Below the pieces are notes generated by a model. It made no database searches, was not told the DNA's origin, and saw nothing but the letters and a program-made list of their open reading frames with translations. From a virus: a DNA stretch of 21,129 bases. Below, one piece after another: positions 8,073 to 8,168 of this stretch. The position numbers were made by a program, and so were the translations under genes. The DNA lies in IMG/VR virus record IMGVR_UViG_3300020194_001592, positions 1 through 21,129 of that record, one strand, 5' to 3'. Position 1 is the first letter of the stretch. The number at the start of each line of letters is the position of its first letter.

Positions 8073-8098
8073 GAGGGCAGTGATGCCCTCTTTTTTTT
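8073..8098 (+). terminator. Strong rho-independent terminator, shared with convergent pqqA
   Basis: The perfect 7-bp stem GAGGGCA (8073-8079) / TGCCCTC (8084-8090) with loop GTGA is followed by T8 (8091-8098). It ends the rightward recombination operon. Read leftward, the same hairpin follows the pqqA stop (8097) and is trailed by a moderately T-rich tail (TCTTCATTT), so it may terminate both. Confidence 0.93.
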
Positions 8099-8168
8099 AC
8101 TTGTTACAAACGTACATTGTTACTTCAAAACCGAAACGCATTTCAGTTGCTGATGGTGTTGTCCACAT
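8097..8168 (-). CDS. pqqA: PqqA, PQQ precursor peptide encoded by the phage
   Basis: A 23-residue ORF. It starts [10 protein letters not shown], then RFGFEVTMY (residues 11-19), and ends VCNK. Bacterial PqqA peptides of this length typically begin MWTKP and carry R-(I/F)-GFEVTMY. The conserved Glu15 and Tyr19, three residues apart (E-V-T-M-Y), are the residues that PqqE/PqqD cross-link to form pyrroloquinoline quinone, the cofactor of methanol and glucose dehydrogenases. Translation is supported by AAGGGAGAAGCAT directly before the ATG. It lies on the opposite strand to flanking genes, with its own -10, leader and shared terminator, like a moron. No pqqB-E is in view, so host enzymes must process it. 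Cys21 is unusual next to the typical F-A-(S/N)-R ending. A decoy role is possible but less likely, since both reactive residues are intact. Confidence 0.9.
   Translation of the reverse strand: [23 protein letters not shown]

Follow-up and report, generated by a model that had tools for sequence, protein, structure and literature searches.

Phage-borne pqqA, the gene for the peptide precursor of the cofactor PQQ, has been described before. Coutinho et al. (2020) described a PqqA from VP_266, a Lake Baikal methylophage population with a Methylophilaceae host, and proposed the same role as is proposed here, namely raising PQQ for methanol dehydrogenase (PMC7678222). A 2026 reservoir study also counted pqqA among virus-encoded genes (PMC13188868). 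As a kind, then, phage pqqA is already known, which answers a question that an earlier note on the present DNA had left open. The DNA examined here is the entire record of a metagenomic virus fragment of 21,129 bases (hereafter the window), and, like VP_266, it pairs a phage-borne pqqA with a predicted Methylophilaceae host. VP_266, however, is a T4-like phage that also carries a methanol dehydrogenase, whereas the pqqA of the window has its own control signals, lies beside a Sak/YqaJ/SSB module, and has no dehydrogenase in the 21 kb seen.

Translation of the window shows that positions 8168-8097 on the minus strand encode a 23-amino-acid PqqA precursor followed by a stop codon. The earlier note had recognized this ORF as PqqA from its letters, and profile searches have borne that out. 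The peptide scores 41.3 bits (E 1.4e-10) with the Pfam family PqqA (PF08042), whose cut-off is 21.1, and 43.3 bits (E 2.2e-11) with the NCBIfam equivalog TIGR02107, whose cut-off is 20. Scores about twice the cut-offs are far outside chance, and the peptide is therefore a true PqqA. Both Glu15 and Tyr19, the pair expected to be cross-linked on the way to the PQQ skeleton, are present with the Glu-x3-Tyr spacing that had been pointed out. A PHROG search with the peptide placed it in no family, a PDB search with it found no related chain, and an Rfam search of the window gave no match.

The gene had also been credited with control signals of its own, and these were located. A Shine-Dalgarno sequence, AAGGGAG, occupies 8181-8175 on the minus strand, 6 nt 5′ of the ATG, and a purine-rich site precedes almost every viral copy of pqqA. 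Farther upstream, a TATAAT sequence (8236-8241, minus strand) is probably the -10 box of a private promoter. Its position is common to close relatives, and a TATAAT box recurs at a similar position in loci L290-L293 and L296 even though the flanking DNA has diverged; a sigma-70 scan that required a -35 match reported no promoter at this box. Downstream, a terminator scan of both strands identified a stem-loop at 8068-8095 that would serve both the convergent SSB operon on the plus strand and pqqA on the minus strand. An alignment of nine loci likewise revealed a stem-loop-like inverted repeat 3′ of the pqqA stop in the relatives.

Phage genes for replication, recombination, lysis, and structure surround pqqA, which thus sits in a real phage context. 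Facing it on the plus strand is a recombination operon comprising a Sak-like ssDNA annealing protein (6553-7182; phrog_659, E 5.2e-32), a YqaJ/RecE-type recombination exonuclease (7151-7792; phrog_149, E 2.2e-45), and, as the last gene, a single-strand DNA-binding protein (SSB; 7795-8049) that matches phrog_18154 weakly (E 1.9e-5). Upstream of pqqA and divergent from it lies an uncharacterised phage ORF (8297-8671, plus strand) taken from the ORF list and assigned to no PHROG. Both flanking ORFs are therefore antisense to pqqA, and neither a methanol dehydrogenase nor any other pqq gene was found in the 21 kb seen, so that the gene is, as first described, alone and opposite in strand to its neighbors. 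Farther away are a helicase, a primosomal protein, a DNA methyltransferase, a polymerase exonuclease subunit, an endolysin, a holin, and a virion structural protein. Of the whole window, megablast matched only the methyltransferase, a DNA cytosine methyltransferase (2682-3785, minus strand), to known phages, at ~78% identity to a phage from Manatee Spring and to Roseobacter phages CRP-821/822. A 205-amino-acid protein at 9225-9842 (plus strand) looks by eye like a 2-oxoglutarate/Fe(II) oxygenase, with an H-x-D motif; its PHROG match is weak and to a family of unknown function.

The virus is predicted to infect methylotrophs of the sea or of brackish water that are related to OM43 (Methylophilaceae), an assignment that rests on pqqA itself because it is drawn from the likeness between the window and OM43 copies. 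Compared over the ORF plus a few flanking bases, the window gene and the OM43 copies share 82-92% DNA identity, and a MAG contig assigned to Nitrosomonadales encodes an identical peptide, with 66 of 69 bases alike. Each of the genomes reached via OM43-type loci, KB13 and LSUCC0665 among them, has three copies of pqqA, and no copy adjoins pqqE, so that one pqqE/pqqC set stands against three detached precursor genes. More broadly, pqqA occurred in 120/120 genomes sampled from the Methylophilaceae group, mostly in 2-8 copies and up to 12, in agreement with published counts of 3-12 pqqA in genomes where the remaining pqq genes form just one set (PMC4109929). Among candidate hosts, the genes searched for were found throughout (pqqE in 8/8, pqqC in 6/6, and a PQQ-dependent alcohol dehydrogenase in 6/6), as expected from the prediction that the host makes PQQ, and the most abundant transcript of OM43 is xoxF (PMC5120137). 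One Methylophilales genome, LSUCC0135 (G004; L189 and other loci), carries pqqA at 12 scattered sites and a single pqqE. A Methylophilaceae-type pqqA also occurs on a 3.5-kb contig assigned to a Flavobacteriaceae bin (L205, CAKZOO010000028.1), probably in error, with a methylotroph or a phage as the likelier source.

It is very likely, judging from sequence, that the window carries a functional stand-alone pqqA of a phage of OM43-related methylotrophs that feeds host PQQ synthesis, and the gene probably keeps host methanol oxidation supplied during infection. The phage peptide would be made during infection, after which host PqqD/PqqE would accept it and cross-link Glu15 to Tyr19. Other host enzymes would then finish PQQ for the XoxF-type methanol dehydrogenase, and these hosts would go on oxidizing methanol, which is their chief source of energy, until lysis. 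Because one PqqA is spent for each PQQ and the enzymes are catalytic, the precursor would be the one part worth carrying as host expression falls. A phage with a single pqq gene would thus gain the most from pqqA, and it is pqqA by itself that has multiplied in the host genomes. According to work cited in PMC9851590, a Gluconobacter extract supplied with purified PqqA alone turned it into PQQ at 70-80%. In Acetobacter, overexpression of pqqAB raised PQQ by only 29% versus eightfold for the whole cluster, and PqqA is therefore not the sole limit in that organism (PMC7936290). No measurement of expression or of PQQ in any infected cell was found.

The earlier note had suggested a search of other viral contigs, and IMG/VR contigs were accordingly scanned with degenerate DNA patterns. 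The first pattern fixes GFEVTMY and was therefore left out of any judgement on E15 and Y19; the second fixes only the N-terminal half and leaves both residues free. Each matched at least 120 stretches, and together they yielded at least 158 further viral loci with pqqA. None of the 158 contained pqqB, C, D, or E, compared with 20 of 120 bacterial pqqA loci in the control, and PqqE above the cut-off was absent from 50 whole viral records. Grouped by common neighboring ORFs, the 158 loci, the isolates, and the window formed 22 groups, the largest with 116 loci, and where the longest ORFs were checked, those of most groups matched phage families, for example portal, terminase, and major head protein. 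The 22 groups are not a count of independent acquisitions, as several are single short contigs; the 69 bases of pqqA are too few to resolve how many times it was gained. Viral contigs with divergent PqqA types (L004, L013, L018, L024, L025, L028, and L079) are probably from phages of other PQQ-making hosts.

Whether the cross-linked pair persists in other phages had likewise been put forward as a point to check. Among the matches listed, E15 and Y19 were kept in 121/121 of the viral peptides that fit the second pattern. Across 109 distinct sequences, V16I occurred once and M18L in five, with the remaining changes in the tail. A rival reading is that the phage peptide is a decoy or brake, which occupies PqqD/PqqE or yields a dead-end product and so lowers host PQQ; a PqqA-like peptide would bind PqqD, and binding alone could explain part of the conservation. 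A decoy, however, would not have to preserve the whole cross-linked pair together with the positions in between. In the viral peptides E15-Y19 hardly varies, and these peptides agree with host ones, in some cases in every letter. A decoy is accordingly improbable.

Selection on the gene was gauged from codons free of the search pattern in the same 109 distinct sequences, a comparison of synonymous with nonsynonymous change that had also been advised. The pN/pS was 0.019 for codons 15-19 and 0.076 for codons 15-23, with synonymous sites near saturation and amino-acid change almost nil. Clearly, pqqA is under strong purifying selection and is kept for its product. This is a strong argument against pqqA being a neutral passenger, that is, a host fragment captured by recombination and unused by the phage, for which its very short length, its DNA identity to the host of up to 92%, and its position next to a recombination module might otherwise speak. 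The place, ribosome-binding site, and -10 box are also conserved in diverged relatives, and pqqA is found in unrelated phage lineages of one host group, which leaves little probability for a passenger.

Retention was also followed in relatives gathered via two other genes, the exonuclease and a structural gene, an approach that avoids selecting for pqqA. Among the 11 closest loci by exonuclease, pqqA was present in 9/9 whose contig reaches the site, in each case antisense and just past the exonuclease/SSB; the contigs of the remaining two stop within ~100 bases of the exonuclease. All 79 new exonuclease loci included 26 with pqqA, always antisense to the exonuclease. The other 53, which are more distant and include some contigs that end early, are counted against the phage-pqqA reading, since they show the gene to be missing from many phages whose exonuclease is related. 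Whole records of at least 24 kb reached via the structural gene had pqqA in 8/9; an apparent absence from structural-gene relatives (0/80) was discarded, as the flanks had ended short of the site and whole records gave the opposite result. When the nine loci were aligned, the pqqA ORF stood out as conserved amid diverged DNA, with the ribosome-binding site present and TATAAT in several.

When 50,697 phage records were searched with tblastn, PqqA turned up in P19250A, Venkman, MEP301, MEP401, MEP402, four Melnitz phages, and, as a tenth record, an uncultured genome from Manatee Spring; a divergent Acinetobacter PqqA used as query returned the same set. None of the ten is annotated with pqqA: the place is empty of features or is taken by a hypothetical ORF, which in both records inspected, those of Melnitz EXVC044M and of the uncultured Manatee Spring genome, lies on the opposite strand. 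The gene goes unmentioned in the main texts of the publications describing MEP401/402, Venkman, MEP301, and Melnitz. MEP431-434, phiMB624-A, and Venkman EXVC038S, which may be missing from the searched collection, were not among the matches. Matches in two records of Acinetobacter phage MD-2021a were left out as bacterial DNA. The one inspected (L128, CAKLQF020000010.1, 102210-114263) has a whole pqqABCDE operon along with polyphosphate kinase and fur, and resembles a bacterial chromosome.

The isolates bear on two further readings. The peptide could conceivably be a PqqA derivative with a different role in infection, such as a regulator or signal, rather than a supply of PQQ. Its length and residues, however, are those of host precursors, cross-linked pair included, and among sequenced isolates it is confined to phages of PQQ-dependent methylotrophs, so that a different role is unlikely, about as much so as a passenger. 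That pqqA is host DNA or a mis-assembly, as might be asked of any metagenomic fragment, has a negligible probability, since phage genes flank it on both sides, independent contigs have the same arrangement, and complete genomes of isolated phages carry pqqA, which excludes host DNA for the family.

With a stand-alone pqqA that supplies precursor thus strongly preferred, what is new is the breadth of the gene over methylophage lineages, including cultured ones, its selective constraint, and the fact that standard annotation has missed it; the literature searched holds no earlier description of pqqA in the cultured phages. Genes of 23 codons are probably under the usual limits of gene calling, and this is the likely reason that pqqA was overlooked. 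We lean towards the broader view that pqqA is near-universal and repeatedly acquired in phages of PQQ-dependent methylotrophs, where it would represent a general consumable-precursor strategy, overlooked for its small size and usable as a methylophage marker. If so, phages of the methanol consumers of coastal seas and lakes would routinely support methanol oxidation by precursor supply, and at least nine published phage genomes would hold an unannotated functional gene. Moreover, pqqA would be a compact sequence tag by which viral contigs could be linked to methylotroph hosts. Cultured pairs, namely Venkman and Melnitz with H5P1 and MEP401/402 with FZCC0133, allow direct testing.

Three comparisons place the window gene among known systems. 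Host pqqA of OM43 and other Methylophilaceae encodes the same type of 23-amino-acid peptide, with OM43 copies at 84-92% DNA identity to the window gene, and occurs several times per genome, likewise detached from pqqBCDE, but it is chromosomal and shares a cell with pqqE and pqqC. The cultured methylophages (P19250A, Venkman, MEP301, MEP401, MEP402, and Melnitz) are phages of Methylophilales that, like the window, have a stand-alone and unannotated pqqA; they differ in that their host group is known from cultivation, in phage lineage and gene neighborhood, and in 2 to ~7 changed positions of the peptide. Finally, the psbA gene of cyanophages encodes the D1 protein, a structural protein of photosystem II. 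As is proposed for phage pqqA, it provides one quickly used-up component of the apparatus by which the host gains energy and leaves out the rest; the product of psbA is structural, whereas the PqqA peptide is spent in making a cofactor.
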